Below, piece by piece: positions 14,702 through 26,088 of a DNA stretch of 64,000 bases. Every line of letters starts with the position of its first letter. The stretch's first letter is position 1. The stretch is taken from the NCBI RefSeq assembly GCF_019890725.1, contig NZ_JAINZZ010000002.1, forward strand, positions 1 through 64,000, written 5' to 3'. The stretch comes from Actinacidiphila acidipaludis (GTDB lineage: Bacteria > Actinomycetota > Actinomycetes > Streptomycetales > Streptomycetaceae). The notes beneath the pieces are model-generated. The model was not told where the DNA came from, ran no database searches, and was given only the letters and a program-made list of their open reading frames with translations. Made by a program: the position numbers and the translations under genes.

Positions 14702-14819
14702 TTCGTCATAGACAGCGCCTATCGCGTCGATGCGGTTTACGTGTTGGACATCACATCCGCGGGGCAGAAGAATAGTGATCGATCATCGATCGTAAGGATG
14801 GATGGGTGGGGAGTTCGAG

Positions 14820-15323
14820 ATGAGCACGATGGTCCAGCCGTTCCGTGACGTCACCGGCCCGGGCGATGAGCGCTTCGAGCAGGAGGTGCTCACCCACCTC
14901 GACCGCGTCTACGCAGGCGCCCTCCAGCTGGTGCCGGACCGGGAGGCCGCCGAGGCCCTCGTCCAGCGCACGTTCGACCGCGCCTACCTGGACTTCCACT
15001 GGGCCCGCCCCTCGGGGAGCGTGCGGGCCTGGCTCTACGGCCATCTGGTCGCCGCCTGGTTCGAGCAGGACGCCCCCGGCCACGGGGCGCGGCGCCCCGC
15101 CGCCGGGCCCCCGCACTCCGCGGACGACGTGGTGTACGGCGTGCTGGACACCCTCGCCCCGATCGTGCGGATCACCGTCTTCCTCGCCGACGCCGAGGGC
15201 CTCTCCAAGGAGGAGATAGCCCGGATCACCGAGGTGCCGGCGGGCATCGTGGAGACCCGGCTGCGGCGCGCCCACGAGCAGATGACGGGCCGGCTCACCG
15301 ACTGGCTGCAGCGAGTTCTCTGA
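14820..15323 (+). CDS. ECF-type sigma factor-like protein
   Basis: A 167-residue protein. The first half resembles sigma region 2 (LTHLDRVYAGALQLVPDREAAEALVQRTFDRAY). The end is a region 4 helix-turn-helix (LSKEEIARITEVPAGIVETRLRRAHEQM). Conserved acidic and aromatic residues of region 2 are weaker than in standard ECF factors, so it may be a divergent sigma-like regulator. ATG 14820 was preferred over GTG 14802 because GGGGAG lies 7 nt ahead. A palindromic GATCGATCATCGATC stretch (14777-14791) lies just upstream. No anti-sigma gene is adjacent. Its 3' end overlaps the convergent gene by 29 nt. Confidence 0.7.
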   Translation: MSTMVQPFRDVTGPGDERFEQEVLTHLDRVYAGALQLVPDREAAEALVQRTFDRAYLDFHWARPSGSVRAWLYGHLVAAWFEQDAPGHGARRPAAGPPHSADDVVYGVLDTLAPIVRITVFLADAEGLSKEEIARITEVPAGIVETRLRRAHEQMTGRLTDWLQRVL

Positions 15324-16509
15324 CCCCCGCCACCAGCCGGTCCACGTCCTCCGCGTCGTTGTAGGGCGCGATCCCGGCGCGCACCGCGCCGGCCGGACCG
15401 AGCCCGAGGCGGCGGGCCGCCTCGATCGCGTAGAAGCTGCCGGCCGGGGCGTTGACTCCGCGCGCCGCCAAGTGCTCGTACACCGCCTGCGGCGGGTGGC
15501 CGGCCAGCGAGAACAGCGCGGTGGGGGTGCGCGGCCGCGGCGCCGGGTGCACGGTCACGCCGCCGATCGCCGCCAGGCCGTCGAGCAGGCGGTCGAACAG
15601 GGCCTCCTCGTGCGCCTCGACCTGCCGCATCGAGTCCAGCAGCCGGGCCCGCCGGGAGCCCTCGCCCGAGCCGCCGAGGTCCGCGACGAAGTCCACCGCG
15701 GCCGTCGTGCCGGCCAGCAACTCATAGGGCAGCGTGCCCAGTTCGAAGCGTTCCGGCACGGTCTCGGTGGACGCCAGCAGCTTGTCCGGGTGGACGTCCT
15801 CCAGCAGGCCGGGGGAGGCCGCGGCCAGCAGGCCGTGGTGCGGGCCGAAGAACTTGTACGGCGAGCAGGCGTAGTAGTCCGCGCCCAGGGCGGGCAGGGA
15901 GACCGCGGCGTGCGGGGTGAGATGGACGCCGTCGACGTACACCAGCGCCCCCACGGTGTGCGCCGCCTCCGCGATCGCCGGGATGTCGGGCCGGGTGCCG
16001 AGCAGGTTGGACGCGGCGGTCACGGCCACCAGACGGGTGCGGGGTGAGAGCACGGCCGCCACGTCGTCCACGCGCAGCGCACCGGTGGCCGCGTCGAAGT
16101 CGGCCCAGCGGACGGTCGCGCCCGCGGTCGCGGCGGCGGCGGTCCAGGGGCGGATGTTGGCGTCGTGGTCGAGGCGGGTCACCACGACCTCGTCCCCCGG
16201 GTCCCAGCCCTTGGCGAGGGCCCGTGCCATGTCGTAGGTGGCCTGGGTCATCGAGCGGGCGAAGACCACGCAGGCGGGCGGGCAGTCCAGCAGGTCGCCG
16301 ACGGCGGCGCGGGCGCCGGTGACCACGGCGTCGGCGCGCCGTTCCGCGGCCGTGACGGTGCCGCGGTTGGAGATGCCGCCGCACAGGGTGTCGGCCACCG
16401 CCTGGGCGACCCGGTGCGGGACCTGGGAGCCCCCGGGGCCGTCGAAGTGGGCGACCTTGAGGGCGAGGGAGGGGAAAGCGCTGCGTACGCGCGCGACGTC
16501 GAAGGCCAT
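15295..16509 (-). CDS. Cysteine desulfurase-like (class V aminotransferase fold) PLP enzyme
   Basis: A 404-residue PLP enzyme of the SufS/Csd-like family. The PLP lysine is in YYACSPYKFFGPHHGLL. The N-terminal cofactor-binding region FDGPGGSQVPHRV and the HDANIRPW and YVDGVHLTPHAAV segments match the family; the last holds the Asp that contacts the PLP ring nitrogen. These enzymes can remove sulfur from cysteine, but this subfamily often lacks a proven role and no Suf or Isc gene is adjacent. The start was set at ATG 16509 where the conserved FDVARVRSAFPSL begins; upstream codons in frame are not family-like. It overlaps the sigma-like gene tail to tail. Confidence 0.82.
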   Translation of the reverse strand: MAFDVARVRSAFPSLALKVAHFDGPGGSQVPHRVAQAVADTLCGGISNRGTVTAAERRADAVVTGARAAVGDLLDCPPACVVFARSMTQATYDMARALAKGWDPGDEVVVTRLDHDANIRPWTAAAATAGATVRWADFDAATGALRVDDVAAVLSPRTRLVAVTAASNLLGTRPDIPAIAEAAHTVGALVYVDGVHLTPHAAVSLPALGADYYACSPYKFFGPHHGLLAAASPGLLEDVHPDKLLASTETVPERFELGTLPYELLAGTTAAVDFVADLGGSGEGSRRARLLDSMRQVEAHEEALFDRLLDGLAAIGGVTVHPAPRPRTPTALFSLAGHPPQAVYEHLAARGVNAPAGSFYAIEAARRLGLGPAGAVRAGIAPYNDAEDVDRLVAGVRELAAASR

Positions 16510-16530
16510 GGCTCCATCTTGCGCGAAGTG

Positions 16531-16596
16531 TTGACCGCGCCCGGGGGAGACCCTAAGGTGCGTCCGCAAGTTGCGAAGCCATCATCGAAAGTTTCG
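16531..16596 (+). promoter_or_regulatory. Promoter and CGAAA-G-TTTCG operator of the xylanase gene
   Basis: -35 TTGACC (16531-16536), 17-nt spacer, -10 TAAGGT (16554-16559). The palindrome CGAAAGTTTCG (16586-16596) begins 27 nt after the end of the -10, exactly as at the GH43 gene, and is the reverse complement of that site. It implies negative control by the same LacI-type repressor. No LacI-family regulator is in the window. Confidence 0.72.
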
Positions 16597-16644
16597 TTCG
16601 CGCATGCTCGGGATTCTCCCCACGCGTGCCTGAAAGGACCAACC

Positions 16645-17784
16645 ATGTACAAGGTGACGCGCACCGCTGCCGGTGTGGGCGCGGCGGCGGCCGGCCTCCT
16701 CCTGACCGCCGCCTCCGTCCTGTTCGTGTCGGCCGACGCGAACGCCGGCACGCCCGCCGCCCACGACCCCGCCGCGGCCGCGCCCGGCGCCGCATCCTCC
16801 GGCAGGGCCGCGGCGAACGGCGCCACGCTGCGGCAGCTCGCGCAGAAGGCGGGCATCCGCATCGGGACCGCGGTGAACTCCGACGCGCTGGCGGACGAGG
16901 CGCCGTACACGCAGAAGGTGGCCACCGAGTTCGACTCGGTGACCCCGGAGAACGTGATGAAGTGGGACACCGTCGAGCCCGCCCGGGGGACCTTCGTCTT
17001 CACCCAGGCCGACCGGCTCGTCGACTTCGCCCAGGCGCACGGCCAGCTCGTGCGCGGCCACAACCTCGTCTGGCACAGCCAGTTGCCGTCCTGGGTCACC
17101 GACGGCGACTTCAGCGCGACCGAGTTGCGCGACATCCTGCACCGCCACATCACCGCCGAGGTCACGCACTTCAAGGGCCGGATCTGGCAGTGGGACGTGG
17201 TCAACGAGGCGTTCAACGAGGACGGCACCCTGCGCGACGACGTGTGGCTGCAGAAGCTCGGCCCCGGCTACATCGCCGACGCCTTCCGCTGGGCCCACGA
17301 GGCCGACCCCAAGGCCGCGCTGTACATCAACGACTACAACATCGAGGGCGTCAACGCGAAGAGCACCGCGCTCTACGACCTCGTCGCGCGGCTCCGCAAG
17401 GAGGGCGTGCCGGTCCAGGGCGTCGGCATCCAGGGCCACCTGGACGTGCAGTACCCGGCGCCGCACGACATCGCCGACAACATGGCCCGTTTCGACAAGC
17501 TCGGCGTCCAGACCGCCATCACCGAGGCCGACGTGCGCATCACGCTGCCCGCGAGTGCCACGGACGTCGAGGCGCAGGACGAGGCCTACCAGACGCTGCT
17601 GGAGGGCTGCCTGCTCACCCGGCGCTGCACCGACTTCACCGTGTGGGGCTTCACCGACAAGTACTCGTGGGTGCCCGGGGTGTTCACCGGCGAGGGCCAG
17701 GCCAACATCTTCGACGAGAACTACCAGCCCAAGTCGGCCTACACCGCCCTCGCCCAGGACCTGAGGCTGGCGGGCCGCCGGTGA
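16645..17784 (+). CDS. Secreted GH10 endo-1,4-beta-xylanase
   Basis: A 379-residue secreted enzyme. It starts with a Sec signal peptide (hydrophobic stretch about 8-27, cut near ANA at 33-35), then an Ala/Pro-rich spacer to about residue 60 and one GH10 barrel. Family signatures: MKWDTVEP, HNLVWHSQLPSW, the acid/base Glu in WDVVNEAFN, and the nucleophile Glu in TAITEADVRI; WGFTDKYSWVP near the end is also typical. It cleaves internal xylan bonds outside the cell. No carbohydrate-binding module follows, unlike many streptomycete xylanases. ATG 16645 has AAAGGA about 7 nt ahead. It is expected to be co-controlled with the GH43 gene through the shared operator. Confidence 0.93.
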   Translation: MYKVTRTAAGVGAAAAGLLLTAASVLFVSADANAGTPAAHDPAAAAPGAASSGRAAANGATLRQLAQKAGIRIGTAVNSDALADEAPYTQKVATEFDSVTPENVMKWDTVEPARGTFVFTQADRLVDFAQAHGQLVRGHNLVWHSQLPSWVTDGDFSATELRDILHRHITAEVTHFKGRIWQWDVVNEAFNEDGTLRDDVWLQKLGPGYIADAFRWAHEADPKAALYINDYNIEGVNAKSTALYDLVARLRKEGVPVQGVGIQGHLDVQYPAPHDIADNMARFDKLGVQTAITEADVRITLPASATDVEAQDEAYQTLLEGCLLTRRCTDFTVWGFTDKYSWVPGVFTGEGQANIFDENYQPKSAYTALAQDLRLAGRR

Positions 17785-19183: not shown

Positions 19184-22126
19184 TCAGCGGAGCTGGCGGC
19201 GGACCAGCTCGTGGAAGAGCCCCCCCTGCCCGGCCAGCAGCTCGGTGGGGGCGCCCTGCTGGACGACCCGCCCCTCGGCCATCACCAGCACCCGGTCGGC
19301 GTCCATGATCGTGGACAGCCGGTGGGCGATCACGATCCGGGTGGTGCGCATGGCCCTGGTGCTGTCGATGACCGTGCGCTGGGTGCCGTTGTCCAGCGCG
19401 CTGGTCGCCTCGTCGAGGAAGAGGATGCGCGGGCGGCGGATCAGCGCCTGCGCGATCATCAGCCGCTGGCGCTGGCCGCCGGAGACCGCGCCGCCGCCGT
19501 CCGCCAGCACCGTGTGCATGCCCATCGGCATGGCCTTGATGTCCTCGGCGAGCCCCGCCATCGCGGCCGCCTGCCACGCCTCCTCCAGCGTGTACGACTC
19601 CGCGCCGCAGATGCACTCCAGGATCGAGCCGGTGAACGGCTGCGCGTTCTGCAGCACCACCCCGCACTGCCGGCGCACCGCCGCCTGGTCGAGGGCGGCC
19701 AGGTCCTGGCCGTCGTAGAGCACCCCGCCCGCGACCGGCCGGTCGAAGCCGATCAGCAGCCGCAGCAGCGTCGACTTGCCGCAGCCGCTCGCGCCCACCA
19801 CCGCCACGAACTCGCCCGGCCGCACCTGGAAGGACACGTCGTCCAGCACCAGCGGCCCGTCGTCGGAGTACCGGAACGACAGCCCCCGGACCTCGATCGC
19901 GCCGGACAGCGTCCCGGGCTGCGCGCTGGCGGCGGGGACCTCGGGCGCGGCCTCCAGCACCGGCCGCAGCTGCTCGACCATCGGCAGCACCGACACCGCC
20001 GAGACGAGCGCGCCGGTCAGCTGGGTGGCCGAGGTGAGCATCATCGTGGCGGCCGAGCTGAAGGTGAGGAAGCTGCTGGGGGAGAGGCTGCCGCGGGCGG
20101 GACCGGCGAGCAGCATGAACAGCAGCAGCGTGCAGAACGGCAGGTACACCGCGTTGAACACGGTGGTGACGTTCCTGATCCGGCCCACGCGCTGCTGCAG
20201 TTCGCGGCTGCGCGCGAACTCGGTGGCCCACGCGGCGTAGGCGAAGTTCTCGGCGGCGGCCACCCGCAGCTTCGGCAGCCCGCGCAGCGTCTGGAACGAG
20301 CGGTTGGCGAGCTTGTTGTTCAGCTCCACCAGGCGCCGCTGCCAGCGCAGTTGCCACAGCCCGGTGGCCAGGAACACCGAGGCGACCACCGCGAGCATGC
20401 CCAGGGCCGCGAACGCCAGCGGCACGCTGTACCAGACCAGCAGCACCAGGTTCACGACGGCGACGGTGCCGGACTGCACGGCCACCGCGGTGGTGCCCGA
20501 CAGCATGCGGCGGATGCCGGAGACGCCCATCGCGGCGGCGGCCAGTTCCCCGGTCGAGCGCTGGGCGAAGAACCGGGTGGGCAGCCGCAGCAGCCGGTCC
20601 CACACGGCAGGCTGCAGGCCCGCCTCGATCCGGCCCTCCAGCCGCAGGATCGCGGTGTTCTGCACCAGCATGAACGCCGCCGACACCAGCGTGGTCGCGA
20701 CGATGGCCAGCGCGGTCTGGACGATCAGCCCCTTCTCGGCCTGCGGCACGTAGGAGCCGAGGATCCGGCCGGTCGCGATGGGCACCAGCGCGCCCAGGCC
20801 GACCGCGATCAGACTGCCGGTCAGCAGCCGCCCCACGTCGGGCCCGCTGCCGCGCATGCCGAAGCGCAGCAACTGCCGTGTGGAGACGGGCTCCTCGGGC
20901 AGCGTCCGGTAGAACATCACGCCGGCGGGCGCGAAACCGGCCGCGTTCGACGCGTCGATCCGTGTCCGGCGCCCGCCGCGCGGCTCGACCGCCTGGTAGC
21001 CGCCGCGCCGCCACAGCAGTGCCACCGGCGCGCCGCTCGCCGCCCGCGCGCCCAGCAGCGGGCCGGCGTCCTGCCGCCACCAGCGGTCGCCGAGTGCGAC
21101 CTCGCGGGTGCGGAACCCCGAGGCGAGAGCGATCCGTTCGACCGGGGACGTACGGCCGGGCGCGGCGGCCTCACCGGGCGCCGCGGCGGCGTCGGCGCCG
21201 CCCGCCGGCTCCCGCACCTCGATGCCGGCCGCGGCCCCGACCAGCCGGCAGGCGGCGAGCACGGCGTCCCCGCCGCCCTCCCCGCGGTCGTCGGGGGCCG
21301 CGCCCGCGATGGAGGCGAGCAGCGCCTGCTGCGCCCGGTCGCCGGCCGCCTCGCCGGCCTTGATCCCGGCGGCCGCCCGCTCCTCGTGGTCGCGCTCCAG
21401 CCGTTCGATCCAGCGGCCCAGCGCGATCAGCAGCCGCGACTGCTGGTTGACCATCCGCTGCCACATCCCGCCGTCGATCAGCAGCTGGCCGTCGGCCTCC
21501 GCGCCGAACTCGGCGCCGTAGCGGACCGTGCCGGGGTCCACCGGCATCCACTGGATGTCGTCGTCGGGCGACGCGCCGCCGGCGGCCGGGCGGCCGTCCA
21601 CCCGGGCCTCGAACAGCACCCGCAGCCCGCGTCCGACGCCCTGCGCGAACGCCTGCTCCAGCGCGCTGAGCTGCGGCACCCCGCCGCCGTACGCCCAGCC
21701 GACGTCGCCCGTGCCGTACCCCTGGCCGTACGGGTCCTGGTACCAGCCCTGCGCGCCCTGGCCGCCGTAGGTGTCGTCCATCGCGTACGGCTGCGCGGGC
21801 GCGAACAGTTCCCGCAGCGGGATCCGGCGCACCGCGCAGCCGTCCAGCGGGCGGCTCACCAGCGTGTACTGCGGGCCCTCCACCGGGCCCATGAGCAGCG
21901 TGCCCGGCTCCAGCCGGCCCAGGAAGTGCCACTGGCCGTCCGCGGCGGCGTCCACCGCGAACAGGTCCATGGCGCCCTCGACCACCAGCCACAGCACGTG
22001 CGGCCCCTCCAGGGGCAGGCTGCGCAGTCCCGCGCAGTCCACGGCGTGGCCCAGGGACCCCATCGCGCCGATCACCAGGTCGCCGGGGCCGGGCGCCTGG
22101 AGCAGCGGGTCGTGCACCGAGGTCAC
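19184..22126 (-). CDS. NHLM/NHLP-type peptide export ABC transporter, permease/ATPase subunit
   Basis: A 980-residue ABC half-transporter with a long N-terminal extension. Residues about 1-110 look like a cyclic-nucleotide-binding-type beta-roll. A Tyr/Gly/Gln-rich insert follows (119-149), then a helical and beta segment. The transmembrane domain lies at about 430-700 and the ATPase domain at the C-terminus, with Walker A GASGCGKST, signature VSGGQ and Walker B ILFLDEATSALD. This architecture is that of the second transporter in NHLM bacteriocin systems, which exports peptides with the C39 partner. GTG 22126 starts 1 nt after the upstream stop, so it is the last gene of a coupled operon. It lacks a peptidase domain. 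Confidence 0.88.
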   Translation of the reverse strand: MTSVHDPLLQAPGPGDLVIGAMGSLGHAVDCAGLRSLPLEGPHVLWLVVEGAMDLFAVDAAADGQWHFLGRLEPGTLLMGPVEGPQYTLVSRPLDGCAVRRIPLRELFAPAQPYAMDDTYGGQGAQGWYQDPYGQGYGTGDVGWAYGGGVPQLSALEQAFAQGVGRGLRVLFEARVDGRPAAGGASPDDDIQWMPVDPGTVRYGAEFGAEADGQLLIDGGMWQRMVNQQSRLLIALGRWIERLERDHEERAAAGIKAGEAAGDRAQQALLASIAGAAPDDRGEGGGDAVLAACRLVGAAAGIEVREPAGGADAAAAPGEAAAPGRTSPVERIALASGFRTREVALGDRWWRQDAGPLLGARAASGAPVALLWRRGGYQAVEPRGGRRTRIDASNAAGFAPAGVMFYRTLPEEPVSTRQLLRFGMRGSGPDVGRLLTGSLIAVGLGALVPIATGRILGSYVPQAEKGLIVQTALAIVATTLVSAAFMLVQNTAILRLEGRIEAGLQPAVWDRLLRLPTRFFAQRSTGELAAAAMGVSGIRRMLSGTTAVAVQSGTVAVVNLVLLVWYSVPLAFAALGMLAVVASVFLATGLWQLRWQRRLVELNNKLANRSFQTLRGLPKLRVAAAENFAYAAWATEFARSRELQQRVGRIRNVTTVFNAVYLPFCTLLLFMLLAGPARGSLSPSSFLTFSSAATMMLTSATQLTGALVSAVSVLPMVEQLRPVLEAAPEVPAASAQPGTLSGAIEVRGLSFRYSDDGPLVLDDVSFQVRPGEFVAVVGASGCGKSTLLRLLIGFDRPVAGGVLYDGQDLAALDQAAVRRQCGVVLQNAQPFTGSILECICGAESYTLEEAWQAAAMAGLAEDIKAMPMGMHTVLADGGGAVSGGQRQRLMIAQALIRRPRILFLDEATSALDNGTQRTVIDSTRAMRTTRIVIAHRLSTIMDADRVLVMAEGRVVQQGAPTELLAGQGGLFHELVRRQLR

Positions 22127-22127
22127 G

Positions 22128-24392
22128 TCAGCGCTCCCTGACCAGTTCCGCGTACGGCCCGCCGGCCGCGCTCAGTTCCTCGTGGCGGCCGCGCTCGACG
22201 ACCGTGCCGCGCTCCAGCACGACGATCTCGTCGCTGTCGCGGACCGTGCTCAGCCGGTGGGCGATGACCACGCAGGCGCAGCCGCGGCGGCGCAGGTTGT
22301 CGATGATCAGCCGCTCGGTCTCGGCGTCCAGGGCGCTGGTCACCTCGTCCAGCACCAGCACGCTCGGCCGGCGGACCAGCGCGCGGGCGATCTCCAGGCG
22401 CTGCCGCTGGCCGCCGGAGAAGTTCCGGCCGTCCTGCTCCACCCGGCAGTGGATGCCGCCCGGCCGGCGGGCGATCACGTCGTCCACAGCGGCGTCCCGC
22501 AGCGCGGCGAGCACCGCGTCGTCCGGCACCGACGGGTCCCACAGCGCCACGTTGTCGCGCACGGTGCCCTCGAAGAGGAAGACGTCCTGGTCGACGAAGG
22601 ACACCGACGAGGCCAGCGCGCTCTGCGGAATGTCCTCCAGACGCTGCCCGTCGATCCGGATCACGCCCTCCCACGGCCGGTACAGGCCCGAGATCAGCCG
22701 GGACACCGTGGACTTGCCGCTGCCGGAGCCGCCGACCAGCGCCACCTGCTGACCGGGACCCACCCGCAGGGTGAAGCCGTTCAGCAGCGGCGGGTCCAGC
22801 GGGCTGTAGCCGAACGTGACGTTCTCCAGGGTCACATGGCCGGTCAGCCGCCGGGTGCCCGCGGCGTCCGCCGCGCCCGGACCGGCGCCGCCGCGCCGCC
22901 CGCGGGTGTAGCGGGCGTCCGCGGGGAAGCTCTCCACGTCCTTCAGGCGCGTCACGTCCGCGGCGAAGTCCTGGACCCGGCCGGCCACTCCGTTGAGCCG
23001 GGTGACCGGCGCGGTGAAGCTGGTGACCAGGGCCTGGAACGCGACCAGCAGGCCGACCGAGATGCTGCCCTCGGCCGCCCGCTGCCCGCCGATCAGCAGG
23101 ATCAGCGCGCTGTTGAGCGCGGCGAGGGTGGGGGCGACGACGGCGAGCGCGGCACTCGGCACACCGAGCCGCTGCTGCCCGTCCAGGGTGGCGGCGTGCT
23201 GGCCGGCCCAGCGCCGGAAGTAGCCGCTCTCCCCGCCGGTGGCCTTCATCGTCTCGATCAGCTGCAGGCCGCTGTACGAGGTGTTGGTCAACTTGGCGGT
23301 GTCGGCGCGGAGTTTGTGGGTACCGGTGGCCCGCAGCCGGACCACCACCCGCATCGCCACCACGTTCAGCAGGGCCACCAGGACGCCGAGCAGTGTCAGT
23401 TGGGGGTCGTACGTCCAGAGCAGCACCGCGTACAGCAGCACCACCACCGCGTCGACGCCCGCGGCCGCGAGGTCGCGGGCCAGCGTCTCGGCGACCGAGT
23501 CGTTGGACTGCAGCCGCTGCACCAGGTCGGCCGGGTTGCGCTGGGCGAAGAACTGCACCGGCAGCCGCAGCAGGTGCCGCATGAAGCGCGCGCTGGTCAG
23601 CGTCGAGGAGATGATCCGGCCGCGCAGCAGGTTGGCCTGCTGGACGGCGGTCAGCACCGCGGTGAGCGCGACCAGCACGCCCATGGAGAGGAACAGGGTG
23701 CTCAGCAGGGACCGCTGGCCGCCGATCAGGAAGCGGTCGATGTAGGTACGGCTGAGCGCGGGCGCCGCCGCCCCGGTGAGCACCAGCAGGAAGCTGGCCG
23801 TCATCGCGGCCAGCAGGGTGCCGGTCGTGCCGCGCAGCCGGGCCGGCAGGGCGCGCAGGATGCCTGGCTTGCGGCCGCCGCCGCGGAACCCCGCGTCCGG
23901 TTCGAAGGTCAGCACCACGCCGGTGAAGCTGGTGTCGAAGTCCTCGGTGCGCACGAAACGGCGGCCGCGCGCCGGGTCGTTGATGTGCACGCCCTGCCGG
24001 CCGAGCCGGCCCGACATGCCCTCGTAGACCACGTAGTGGTTGAACTCCCAGAAGAGCACGGCAGGCGCCTGGACCTGAGCGAGGGCGGCCGGTTCCATCT
24101 GCATGCCCTTGGCCCGCAGGCCGTGGCTGCGGGCCGCCTTGAGCAGGTTGCTCGCCCGGGAGCCGTCCCGGGAGACCCCGCAAGCGATCCGCAGCTGCTC
24201 CAGCGGTACGAAGCGGCCGTAGTGGCCGAGCACCATCGCCAGCGACGCCGCCCCGCACTCCACGGCCTCCATCTGCAGCACCGAGGGGGTGCGGACCCGC
24301 CGGGGCCGCCGTCCGCGCGGCACCGCCGCCGCCTCGGGGCGGTGGCGGCCGCCGCGCGAGGGGGCGGGGGCCGGGAAGTGCCGGGGGCTCAC
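22128..24392 (-). CDS. NHLM/NHLP-type export ABC transporter with C39 leader peptidase
   Basis: A 754-residue fusion. An N-terminal C39 peptidase (about 35-165) has catalytic Cys in MEAVECGAASLAMVLGHYG, His in EFNHYVVYEG and Asp in INDPARG. It cuts after double-glycine leaders. Transmembrane helices follow (about 195-480) and then an ATPase domain with GGSGSGKST, FSGGQRQR and VLVLDEVTSALD. It would process and export the 74-aa precursor encoded upstream. GTG 24392 overlaps the adaptor stop by 4 nt (GTGA). All catalytic residues are intact, so the machine looks functional. Confidence 0.92.
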   Translation of the reverse strand: MSPRHFPAPAPSRGGRHRPEAAAVPRGRRPRRVRTPSVLQMEAVECGAASLAMVLGHYGRFVPLEQLRIACGVSRDGSRASNLLKAARSHGLRAKGMQMEPAALAQVQAPAVLFWEFNHYVVYEGMSGRLGRQGVHINDPARGRRFVRTEDFDTSFTGVVLTFEPDAGFRGGGRKPGILRALPARLRGTTGTLLAAMTASFLLVLTGAAAPALSRTYIDRFLIGGQRSLLSTLFLSMGVLVALTAVLTAVQQANLLRGRIISSTLTSARFMRHLLRLPVQFFAQRNPADLVQRLQSNDSVAETLARDLAAAGVDAVVVLLYAVLLWTYDPQLTLLGVLVALLNVVAMRVVVRLRATGTHKLRADTAKLTNTSYSGLQLIETMKATGGESGYFRRWAGQHAATLDGQQRLGVPSAALAVVAPTLAALNSALILLIGGQRAAEGSISVGLLVAFQALVTSFTAPVTRLNGVAGRVQDFAADVTRLKDVESFPADARYTRGRRGGAGPGAADAAGTRRLTGHVTLENVTFGYSPLDPPLLNGFTLRVGPGQQVALVGGSGSGKSTVSRLISGLYRPWEGVIRIDGQRLEDIPQSALASSVSFVDQDVFLFEGTVRDNVALWDPSVPDDAVLAALRDAAVDDVIARRPGGIHCRVEQDGRNFSGGQRQRLEIARALVRRPSVLVLDEVTSALDAETERLIIDNLRRRGCACVVIAHRLSTVRDSDEIVVLERGTVVERGRHEELSAAGGPYAELVRER

Positions 24393-25186
24393 GGCAGCAG
24401 CCAGTCGAGCGGGCGCTCCGCGGCCAGGTGGACCGAGGCGCCGACGGGAGTCATCGAGGTGAGCCGGGTCGGCGGGCCGCCCGCCGTGGACCAGCGGTAG
24501 CCGGACGGGTTCGAGGCGGACGCCGCGAGCCGCACCAGCACCGGTACCGGCGCGCCCTTGGCCGCGAACTGCCCGGCCAGGACGGGGTCGCCGAGGAAGG
24601 CGGCGATCTGCTGGCGCGACTGCGGCTGCCCGACCCCGGCCACGGTGCCGCGCAGCGTGCCGTACCGCCCGGGCACGGAGGGCACGGCCAGTTCCACGGG
24701 GGCGCCCACCGGCATCCGCGCGGTGCCGCCCTGCACGTACAGCATGGCCACCAGCGGCTCGCCGGGCCGTCCCGCGCGTTCGAGGGTCGCCACGGTCGCG
24801 CCGGTGGTGATCACCGCGCCGATGGCGGCGGTCAGCGTCACCACCTGGCCCGCGGCCACGGTGTGCACGGACTGGACGCCGGTGGCGGTGCGGACGTCCA
24901 GCACGGGCGCGTCGGCGGGCAGGGTGTCACCGGGCTTGGCGCGCACCTGCACGACCTGGCCGGCCACCGGGCTCTGCAGCACATAGCTGCCCTCGGTGCG
25001 GGTCAGCACGCCCGCCGCGCTCAGCTTGCTGGTGACGGTGCCGGTCACCGCCCACACTCCGGCCGCCGCCAGGACGACGACGCAGACGGCGAGCGCGAGC
25101 CGGCCCTGCGGCCGGGCGAAACGCACCGGCAGGTCGAGCTCTTCCGGTGACTGCAGTTTGGCCAGCGCCTTCTGGCGGAACTCCAC
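24389..25186 (-). CDS. HlyD-like adaptor (NHLM secretion protein)
   Basis: A 265-residue membrane-fusion-type protein. After a short cytoplasmic N-terminus (MEFRQKALAKLQSPEELDLP, typical of NHLM adaptors) comes one transmembrane helix (about 30-50, LALAVCVVVLAAAGVWAVTG). Biotinyl-lipoyl-like strands follow on the outside (SPVAGQVVQVRAKPGDTL; AAGQVVTLTAAIGAVITTGATVATLE). It likely bridges the two ABC subunits and the cell wall side. GTG 25186 has an AAGGAAG ribosome site. It lies between the precursor gene's hairpin and the C39 transporter, with which it overlaps. Confidence 0.88.
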   Translation of the reverse strand: MEFRQKALAKLQSPEELDLPVRFARPQGRLALAVCVVVLAAAGVWAVTGTVTSKLSAAGVLTRTEGSYVLQSPVAGQVVQVRAKPGDTLPADAPVLDVRTATGVQSVHTVAAGQVVTLTAAIGAVITTGATVATLERAGRPGEPLVAMLYVQGGTARMPVGAPVELAVPSVPGRYGTLRGTVAGVGQPQSRQQIAAFLGDPVLAGQFAAKGAPVPVLVRLAASASNPSGYRWSTAGGPPTRLTSMTPVGASVHLAAERPLDWLLP

Positions 25187-25275: not shown

Positions 25276-25305
25276 GGACCCCGGGCCGTGGTGGCCCCGG
25301 GGTCC
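25276..25305 (-). terminator. Attenuator-like hairpin between precursor and transporter genes
   Basis: GGACCCCGGGCC (25276-25287) pairs with GGCCCCGGGGTCC (25293-25305) around GTGGT, 27 nt beyond the precursor stop and 90 nt before the adaptor start. There is no U tract. A leaky terminator here would give much more precursor than exporter mRNA, as is usual in peptide operons. Confidence 0.65.
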
Positions 25306-25331: not shown

Positions 25332-25556
25332 TCAGATACCGGCGATGCCGGTGACACCCGTGAGGGTGCCGGCGGCACCGGTGACCAGGCCCACGACCTC
25401 GCCGACCGGCAGGGACGGCAGGGCGGAGGTGGCCGAGCCGACCAGGGTGTCCAGACCGTCGATCTGGGCGCCGCCGGAGATGCTGATGCCGCCCGAGACG
25501 CCGTCCAGCTCGGTGTCGGAAATCTCGCGGGTCTCGACCTGGGGCGTGTTGCGCAT
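25332..25556 (-). CDS. Double-glycine leader peptide precursor (bacteriocin-like, 74 aa)
   Basis: The leader MRNTPQVETREISDTELDGVSGG (shown here only as 20+3 residues' worth of motif: ELxxVxGG at 16-23) matches substrates of C39 peptidases. Cleavage after Gly23 leaves a 51-residue product rich in Gly, Ala, Val, Thr, Ser, Leu and Ile. The product has no Cys, Lys, Arg or His and only three acidic residues (Asp33, Asp36, Glu53). Its last 20 residues are uncharged with LTG/VTG/IAG steps. Database-style labels for such leaders are often 'type A2 lantipeptide', but Cys is absent and no lanthionine synthetase is near. ATG 25556 follows a GAAGGGA site; the longer upstream frame is not protein-like. 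It is the first gene of the export operon. Confidence 0.82.
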   Translation of the reverse strand: MRNTPQVETREISDTELDGVSGGISISGGAQIDGLDTLVGSATSALPSLPVGEVVGLVTGAAGTLTGVTGIAGI

Positions 25557-26088
25557 GAGTGCGTTTTCCCTTCGTTGCACTGGAAATTCCACAAGAGATT
25601 CCGGCCGCCGGAATCTGTCCGGACAGGCCGAATTCAACGGTCGTGCGACGCCCCGGGATCCGGAATGCGTATCGGCAACTCCCGCTTGGCGGTCGATGTA
25701 AGCACGTGATCGGCCGCCCGGCCAGCCGTGCCCGGGCCGTGGGCTGCGGAAACGGTTACCCGGGAAGAATCGCGTCACCGGACCGGAACGAGTTCTTCAC
25801 ACGGCCCACCGATTCGTACCGCGTGTGACGCCGTGCCGCCCATTTCGCTCGAACACCCCTGCGCACGCGGCGCGGTCGCCGTTCGGTTGTGGTCAGAATC
25901 CGCCAGAAGCTGTGCAGTTTCTGTACCTGTGGTGTGCGGTCGTGCCAATACCGGTATGCGTGGCGCCAGTTCGTCCGACAGTGCGCATGATCAGGGCATG
26001 TGCGGTGATGTCGGACATCGCGGCGGCAGCCCGGCAGGCGATGCCCCTCGCGGGTTCCGGGGGGTTCGCGTACGGGTCCGGGCACGGC
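25557..26088 (-). promoter_or_regulatory. Upstream region of the precursor gene; palindrome at 25597-25615, otherwise no gene
   Basis: About 530 bp without a supportable gene. GATTCCGG (25597-25604) and CCGGAATC (25608-25615) form an inverted repeat around CCG, 41 nt ahead of the precursor start, and is the best operator candidate. A perfect ATACCGGTAT (25950-25959) lies farther away. Local G+C around 25780-25960 seems lower than in genes, as expected for a control region. No clear -35/-10 pair was found. Confidence 0.45.

Follow-up and report, generated by a model that had tools for sequence, protein, structure and literature searches.

Exporters of the type described here and double-glycine precursors are already known. 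The locus lies in a window, the whole stretch of 64,000 nucleotides of Actinacidiphila acidipaludis DNA that was analysed. In the parts of the NHLM/NHLP description considered here (PMC2887384), the same three kinds of exporter protein lie side by side with an adjoining Gly-Gly-leader precursor; in the window system, in contrast, no nitrile-hydratase-like leader domain and no maturation enzyme were found, the core is Cys-free, and the HlyD protein is short and falls below the cut-off of its model. The cyanobacterial C39/HlyD bacteriocin clusters, as presented in the sections consulted (PMC3140520), resemble the window system in having a C39 ABC transporter, HlyD and double-glycine precursors, and some groups also have a peptidase-free ABC transporter. 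However, the cyanobacterial cores described there vary and contain much Gly, Cys, Ser and Thr, and several groups average more than three precursors per cluster (PMC3140520, same sections), whereas the present cores contain no Cys, are anionic and occurred singly at each of 17 cassettes. No description of a Cys-free anionic precursor family with its upstream element and satellite precursors was recognised, and six leader strings had no occurrence, in the searched literature, which mostly leaves subscription papers aside.

SapB/AmfS and the chaplins are small amphiphilic secreted products of Streptomyces, and SapB is a modified class III lanthipeptide. The product predicted here would share this small, amphiphilic and secreted character, but no modification gene shared among the cassettes was found, and a Pfam search with the precursor gave no family at E up to 1, hence no chaplin domain. 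Class II (type A2) lanthipeptides require LanM and Cys, both of which were tested in the window system and were absent. In the part considered of one report (PMC13047742), the name 'type A2 lantipeptide' is given to a short Streptomyces gene whose region also has a Peptidase_C39 gene; this gene, compared by description and not by sequence, may belong to the precursor family presented below.

The window contains a four-gene unit in the order precursor, HlyD-like adaptor, ABC1 and ABC2, with the precursor first. Its features are as follows.

25695..25706, (-) strand: promoter-like element CGTGCTTACATC, with TGG 15 nt upstream at 25722-25724
25566..25573, (-) strand: ribosome-binding sequence GAAGGGAA, from the window sequence and the genus homologues
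25332..25556, (-) strand: precursor peptide gene, 74 aa and stop, from translation, homologues and ribosome-binding sequence
25488..25556, (-) strand: double-glycine leader MRNTPQVETREISDTELDGVSGG, 23 residues, with V(-4), L(-7) and I(-12)
25335..25487, (-) strand: predicted mature core, 51 residues, net charge -3, Cys-free and without basic residues
25470..25478, (-) strand: second SGG, residues 27-29, judged not a C39 site
25276..25305, (-) strand: GC-rich hairpin between the precursor and exporter genes, from folding versus shuffles
24389..25186, (-) strand: HlyD-like adaptor, 265 aa (TIGR03794, 123.4 bits, below the cut-off of 156.2)
22128..24392, (-) strand: ABC1, C39 peptidase, permease and ATPase (TIGR03796, 1000.9 bits, cut-off 853.3)
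19184..22126, (-) strand: ABC2, permease and ATPase, no peptidase match (TIGR03797, 878.1 bits, cut-off 709.4)

The start codon of the precursor was supported by the conserved leader and by a GAAGGGA-like ribosome-binding sequence, which is found in most of the 28 genus homologues. ABC1 matched Peptidase_C39 at 1.5e-34 and aligned nearly end to end with solved peptidase-containing transporters, including ComA chains. The HlyD and ABC1 genes overlap by 4 nt, and ABC2 carries an N-terminal extension of about 285 aa ahead of its model match. Thus, when the window proteins were set against the curated cut-offs for NHLM export, ABC1 and ABC2 passed and HlyD did not, its 265 aa standing against the 421 positions of the NHLM HlyD model TIGR03794. 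A short HlyD appears to be usual in the cassette, since the HlyD matches at 16 of 17 fetched cassette loci span 264-268 aligned residues (310 at the remaining one).

A search with the window peptide gave matches in 22 of 35 genomes of the genus, and a 22-row profile found the precursor in 233 of the 394 genomes sampled across the family, taken to be Streptomycetaceae, covering 9 of 17 genera. In a class-wide draw, 22 of 296 genomes matched, all from the same family and from 2 of the 115 genera. With E thresholds of 0.001 for the precursor and 1e-150 for ABC1, both were found in the same 22 genus genomes and neither in the remaining 13. In 20 of these carriers the two lie next to each other on a single contig; G004 and G021 have them on separate contigs, the precursor being close to a contig end. 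The full cassette was present at 17 of 20 fetched precursor loci (up to 20 kb), each with one precursor, and the other three had a precursor without exporter. Among 112 short loci, some of which represent the same place twice, HlyD lay beside the precursor in 99 and not in 13, two of the latter at a contig end. The leader, the exporter type and this co-occurrence suggest that the precursor is probably the cargo of the cassette, cut and exported by its own dedicated exporter.

The surroundings of the cassette varied. The PhzF gene adjoining the window cassette was present in 34 of 35 genus genomes and was cassette-adjacent only in G000, G012 and G015, and this changing context, together with the patchy presence (22/35), fits an accessory trait. 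The window peptide itself had no match on plasmids at E up to 0.01. On a Streptomyces chartreusis plasmid, a relative's peptide found a match 77.5% identical to a family precursor, and the ABC1 there was 79.7% identical to the window ABC1, which is the ground for taking the family as Streptomycetaceae; a contig scan also placed at least one relative on a MAG contig. Further precursor matches in the window's own genome were weak (E 0.02 to 0.9). Elsewhere in the window, Pfam identified a sigma-70 region 4 protein gene at 14802-15323 (+), about 4 kb past the ABC2 end of the cassette, and an aminotransferase class V gene at 15295-16569 (-), whose matches at E up to 1e-80 were limited to 11 of 35 genus genomes; the ORF at 16165-17784 (+) resembles a secreted family 10 xylanase. 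Locus L114 holds two precursors with different Gly/Val-rich cores within 3 kb, HlyD being absent there, and the solitary precursor of L063 (MRNSTQVETREITDSDLDGISGG...) lies, in divergent orientation, about 0.8 kb from an ABC transporter gene only about 32% like that of the cassette.

For the family as a whole, 99 distinct precursor homologues were compared, taken from the loci in hand, which represent part of the 233 matching genomes. The leader pattern used for collection fixes several leader positions, so that leader counts over the 99 are partly built in.

According to the passages considered of a review (PMC10885120), recognition by C39 peptidases relies on hydrophobic residues at -4, -7 and -12, and leaders without these three residues cannot be removed by the C39 domain LahT150. 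In the window precursor, recounting of the translation located SGG at residues 21-23 and again at 27-29, six residues later, as reported in the preliminary description. The -4/-7/-12 residues are Val/Leu/Ile for a cut after Gly23 and Ile/Gly/Asp for a cut after Gly29. The earlier suggestion of a second C39 cut was thus not borne out, because the second GG has no hydrophobic residue at -7 (Gly) or -12 (Asp), and SGG within the first 12 core residues was present in just 12 of 99 cores; cleavage after Gly29 is predicted to be unlikely. The second SGG was kept in all five sequences of the window's nearest clade and also recurs among solitary precursors of the genus, and we take it to be a piece of the core's head segment.

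The leader also resembles the end of an NHLP leader. A related sister cassette, whose ABC1 is 57-58% identical, was found in two genus members and on a Streptomyces cadmiisoli plasmid, and in both of these genomes its HlyD gene has NHLP-type precursors with Cys-rich cores at a distance of about 4-8 kb. Those at L144:13672-14034, L144:17089-17448 and L145:2279-2647 have nearly all-Cys cores (YCCCCCPCCTCT, YCCCCSPCCTCT), and their product is probably a Cys-modified peptide. The tested L144 precursor, whose leader ends in PQIEDRELSEADLEAVSGG, matched TIGR03793 at E 2.1e-11 but with 43.5 bits against a cut-off of 50.9; the Streptomyces cadmiisoli plasmid precursor matched weakly (16.5 bits), and the window precursor gave no match to this nitrile-hydratase-like leader domain at E up to 1. 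Against the L144 tail, the window leader was identical at 11 of 19 positions and the family leaders at 11 on average and 14 at best, and the 12 columns before -7 fitted the tail far above permuted columns (0/2000), one NHLP tail being compared and the likeness being partly the general double-glycine pattern. The short leader may be either a trimmed docking tail of an NHLP leader or a tail that related exporters enforce. The argument that NHLP leader conservation reflects handling by the transporter, as made in the part considered of Haft, Basu and Mitchell (2010, PMC2887384), would fit both origins.

The predicted core was recounted from the translation, which upheld the composition first described: Asp33, Asp36 and Glu53 are the only charged residues among the 51 past Gly23, and Cys, Lys, Arg and His are all absent. 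K, R, H and C make up 11.9% of the three exporter proteins, a composition from which a 51-residue stretch free of them has a chance of P ~0.0016, and 13 of 1849 stretches of this length in the exporter proteins were actually free of them. A lone core of this kind is unusual, not extreme, and its significance comes from the precursor family. Cys was present in 0 of 99 distinct cores, Lys or Arg in 7 and any of K, R or H in 17, with the bias that the homologues were gathered by searches built on Cys-free members and the leader pattern. Net charge lay between -1 and -4 for 98 of the 99 and was 0 for the remaining core; the cores are 39-62 residues long, and Thr and Ser make up 12.0% and 7.6% of their residues. 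Three solitary precursors met again through the promoter-like element (L150, L153 and L171) have cores without Cys, Lys or Arg, each with His, a check that is only partly independent because at least L171 is also a weaker profile match. Identity of the precursor with FapA was rejected (15.3 bits versus a cut-off of 110); other NCBIfam matches were weak and all under their cut-offs, and PDB matches (E 0.21 or worse) were at chance level.

Alignment of homologues was used to compare leader and core. Alignment A1 comprised 22 of 28 genus peptides, and A2 comprised 51 of 75 non-redundant peptides derived from 98 of the 99, L015 being left out for its doubtful start. In the 51 peptides of A2, the core positions P47, V51, G70, G73 and L74 were at least 90% conserved; since A2 omits solitary types, near duplicates and some cassette types with long or divergent cores, these positions represent some and not all cassette-type precursors. 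For leader and core, respectively, dN/dS was 0.33 and 0.52 among the five members of the window clade and 0.22 and 0.61 among the eleven of a clade in a second genus; the core values were 0.69 for the window and L006 and 0.56 for the window and L007. The core is under constraint (dN/dS < 1), more loosely than the leader. Across 22 dissimilar cores, hydrophobic periodicity was found at 101-113 degrees per residue, with z of 8.2 to 11.7 versus shuffles, values at which amphipathic or heptad-like helices fall. The possibility raised at the outset, of a random core behind a kept leader, was rejected on these three grounds, namely the conserved positions, the core dN/dS of 0.52-0.69 and the periodicity across divergent cores; the core itself is kept in part, apparently for its physical pattern more than for its letters.

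The family as a whole points to a helix more cleanly than the window core does; the latter, at exactly 100 degrees, was not above shuffles (P 0.375) and peaked at 110 degrees and almost equally at 130. AlphaFold placed helices at residues 35-45 and 51-71 of the window peptide at low confidence (mean pLDDT 61, pTM 0.25), and the L118 core, modelled without alignment, gave one helix (mean pLDDT 81.6; 55 to 82 over five models). The window clade core may perhaps be modelled as helix-Pro-helix. GxxxG was counted 317 times over the family against 171 expected (sd 11, kinship ignored) and 3 times in the window core against 2.0, no clear excess. The packing of the tail as a transmembrane helix, which the preliminary description had considered, found little support, the best 19-residue Kyte-Doolittle mean of the window core being 1.55, which does not indicate a clear transmembrane helix.

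With moderate confidence, we favour the reading that the product is an unmodified, exported, anionic helical amphiphile that self-associates, somewhat more probably in the service of the producer's surface than against neighbours, and is not a lanthipeptide.

The strongest alternative, which we regard as unlikely although well worth weighing, is an unmodified class II-like bacteriocin or microcin that would form pores in related actinomycetes, with self-protection through the exporter or through target variation. C39 exporters are dedicated transporters of double-glycine precursors and HlyD is present in every cyanobacterial bacteriocin cluster group, as stated in the sections consulted (PMC3140520). 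The small, hydrophobic, Gly/Val/Ala-rich core, its faster evolution than that of the leader, the patchy distribution and the family-wide GxxxG excess would likewise suit such a peptide, and the loose core dN/dS of 0.56-0.69 to the two near relatives also fits antagonism. On the other hand, 98 of 99 cores are net negative, the best 19 residues have a mean hydropathy of 1.55, and the precursor scored 12.2 bits against bacteriocin_sig, below the cut-off of 15.7. Neighbouring genes were grouped around 18 cassette loci, including the window, with a minimum of 70 aa and an E threshold of 1e-15. Apart from reverse-frame ORFs lying over the cassette and distant paralogues of the ABC proteins, no further group recurred at four or more of the loci in up to 10 kb of flanking sequence, and no shared immunity candidate of that size was found.

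Upstream of the precursor genes, a bipartite element of approximately TGG-N15/16-CGTGCTTnnATC was found 80-188 nt before the start in 53 of 98 precursors, a count that refers to its GTGCTTnnATC part; the exact element was absent from the other 45 upstream stretches, seven of which have a near variant. In five genomes selected as cassette carriers, CGTGCTTnnATC occurred at 10 sites, 7 of them upstream of precursors, versus 3 sites for the backward control. The TTTGATC form, CGTGCTTTGATC, had 23 exact sites in 20 of 121 family genomes, and 17 of these had a precursor no more than 220 nt downstream; for the backward control 6 sites were counted, the same number as the CGTGCTTTGATC sites without a precursor. 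The exact element thus marks many cassettes, some solitary precursors and little else. At L150, L153, L159 and L171, CGTGCTTTGATC precedes a precursor in a 3-kb locus without exporter, and in L150, L153 and L171 the core belongs to a different, Gly/Ala-rich type that contains His.

Between the precursor and the exporter genes, the window hairpin folded with z of -2.35 versus 200 dinucleotide shuffles, 3 of which fold as well, and a hairpin past the precursor stop had z below -2 versus simple shuffles in 76 of 99 homologues. It is perhaps an attenuator or a stabiliser of the mRNA and would favour the precursor over the exporter transcript. This layout, with the element before the precursor and the hairpin before the exporter genes, suggests that more peptide than exporter is made. 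Control of the bldA type is not indicated, as no TTA codon was seen in the precursors or in the aligned stretches of the exporter genes. Sigma-factor promoter patterns, in the forms that we assume for BldN, WhiG, SigE/R, SigF/B/H and HrdB, were applied to the 98 upstream stretches; those for BldN, WhiG and HrdB occurred in none, and the SigE/R and SigF/B/H readings were rejected with 3 and 1 occurrences, respectively.

An element common to several genera could also serve an intercellular signal of density or stage, to which a receptor encoded elsewhere would respond. A quorum-sensing signal is processed by the C39 exporter ComA, according to the passages considered of the review (PMC10885120), and the near end-to-end alignment of ABC1 with solved ComA chains is in keeping with this idea. 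We nevertheless consider it improbable, as no receptor or regulator was found to be shared beside the cassette, a core of 39-62 residues is long for a signal, and the core letters vary widely.

The preliminary description had also argued against the usual 'lantipeptide' label, and in this respect its view was strengthened. A double-glycine leader and a C39 exporter, features also of class II lanthipeptides, are both present at the window locus. The lanthipeptide reading was rejected because no core contains Cys, no maturation gene was found shared around the cassettes, and LanM shows no tendency to go with them: the LanM dehydratase domain PF13575 is absent from the window's genome (99.96% complete) and from 13 of 22 genus carriers including it (among these 13, one assembly is 71% complete and one is 7% contaminated), and 9 of the 22 carriers have it, as against 5 of the 13 non-carriers. 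Matches to PF05147 (LanC-like) in the window genome lie on contigs C161, C92 and C86 and not on the cassette contig C83, and no Ser/Thr-crosslinking enzyme was found among the neighbouring genes shared by the 18 loci. These sequence comparisons suggest that the core is left unmodified. Modification by an enzyme encoded elsewhere, such as Ser/Thr dehydration or crosslinking to a partner peptide, would draw on the abundant Thr and Ser, the LanC-like matches on other contigs and the solitary precursors, which show that parts of the system can be unlinked, yet with no Cys available for thioether rings, no LanM domain in the window genome and LanM distributed over carriers and non-carriers as above, we consider it very improbable.

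We return to the favoured reading of an unmodified surface amphiphile. The 23-residue leader would dock on the C39 domain of ABC1, which would cut the precursor once, after Gly22-Gly23, and ABC1, ABC2 and the short HlyD would then export the 51-residue core, as the leader, the exporter and their co-occurrence suggest. The core, as an anionic amphipathic chain, would self-associate at membranes or at the air/cell interface and serve the producer's own surface in the manner of a surfactant or a coat. Solitary precursors with the same leader probably use the exporter in trans, the same element having been seen in four genomes. Most likely, an NHLM-type exporter has been re-used here for an unmodified cargo.

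We think that use at the producer's surface is somewhat more likely than the killing of neighbours. It is favoured because no immunity, receptor or regulator gene was found travelling with the cassette, because the near-unique promoter-like element is common to many members across genera, and because of the layout suggesting excess peptide, the anionic cores and the restriction to one family. Against it stand the faster evolution of the core, the patchy distribution and the fact that exporters of this kind are in general use for bacteriocins. More speculatively, and with considerable doubt on our part, the family could form a peptide regulon in which one NHLM-type exporter serves its own precursor and the solitary ones with which it has leader and element in common, the product being a surface-assembling, ribosomal and unmodified counterpart of SapB that arose from a trimmed NHLP leader while the maturation enzymes were dropped.

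In summary, a peptide that is encoded in 233 of 394 genomes of the family, and is of a kind that may bear a lanthipeptide label, would on this reading be a secreted amphiphile without modification. This reading makes the clear prediction that the intact mass equals that of the translated core, and the near-unique promoter-like element offers a handle on the regulation of the precursors. The cassette may also be a case in which an exporter of modified peptides has changed its cargo. If the peptide acts at the surface, it would be one more molecule to consider in the long-standing question of what allows hyphae to leave water.
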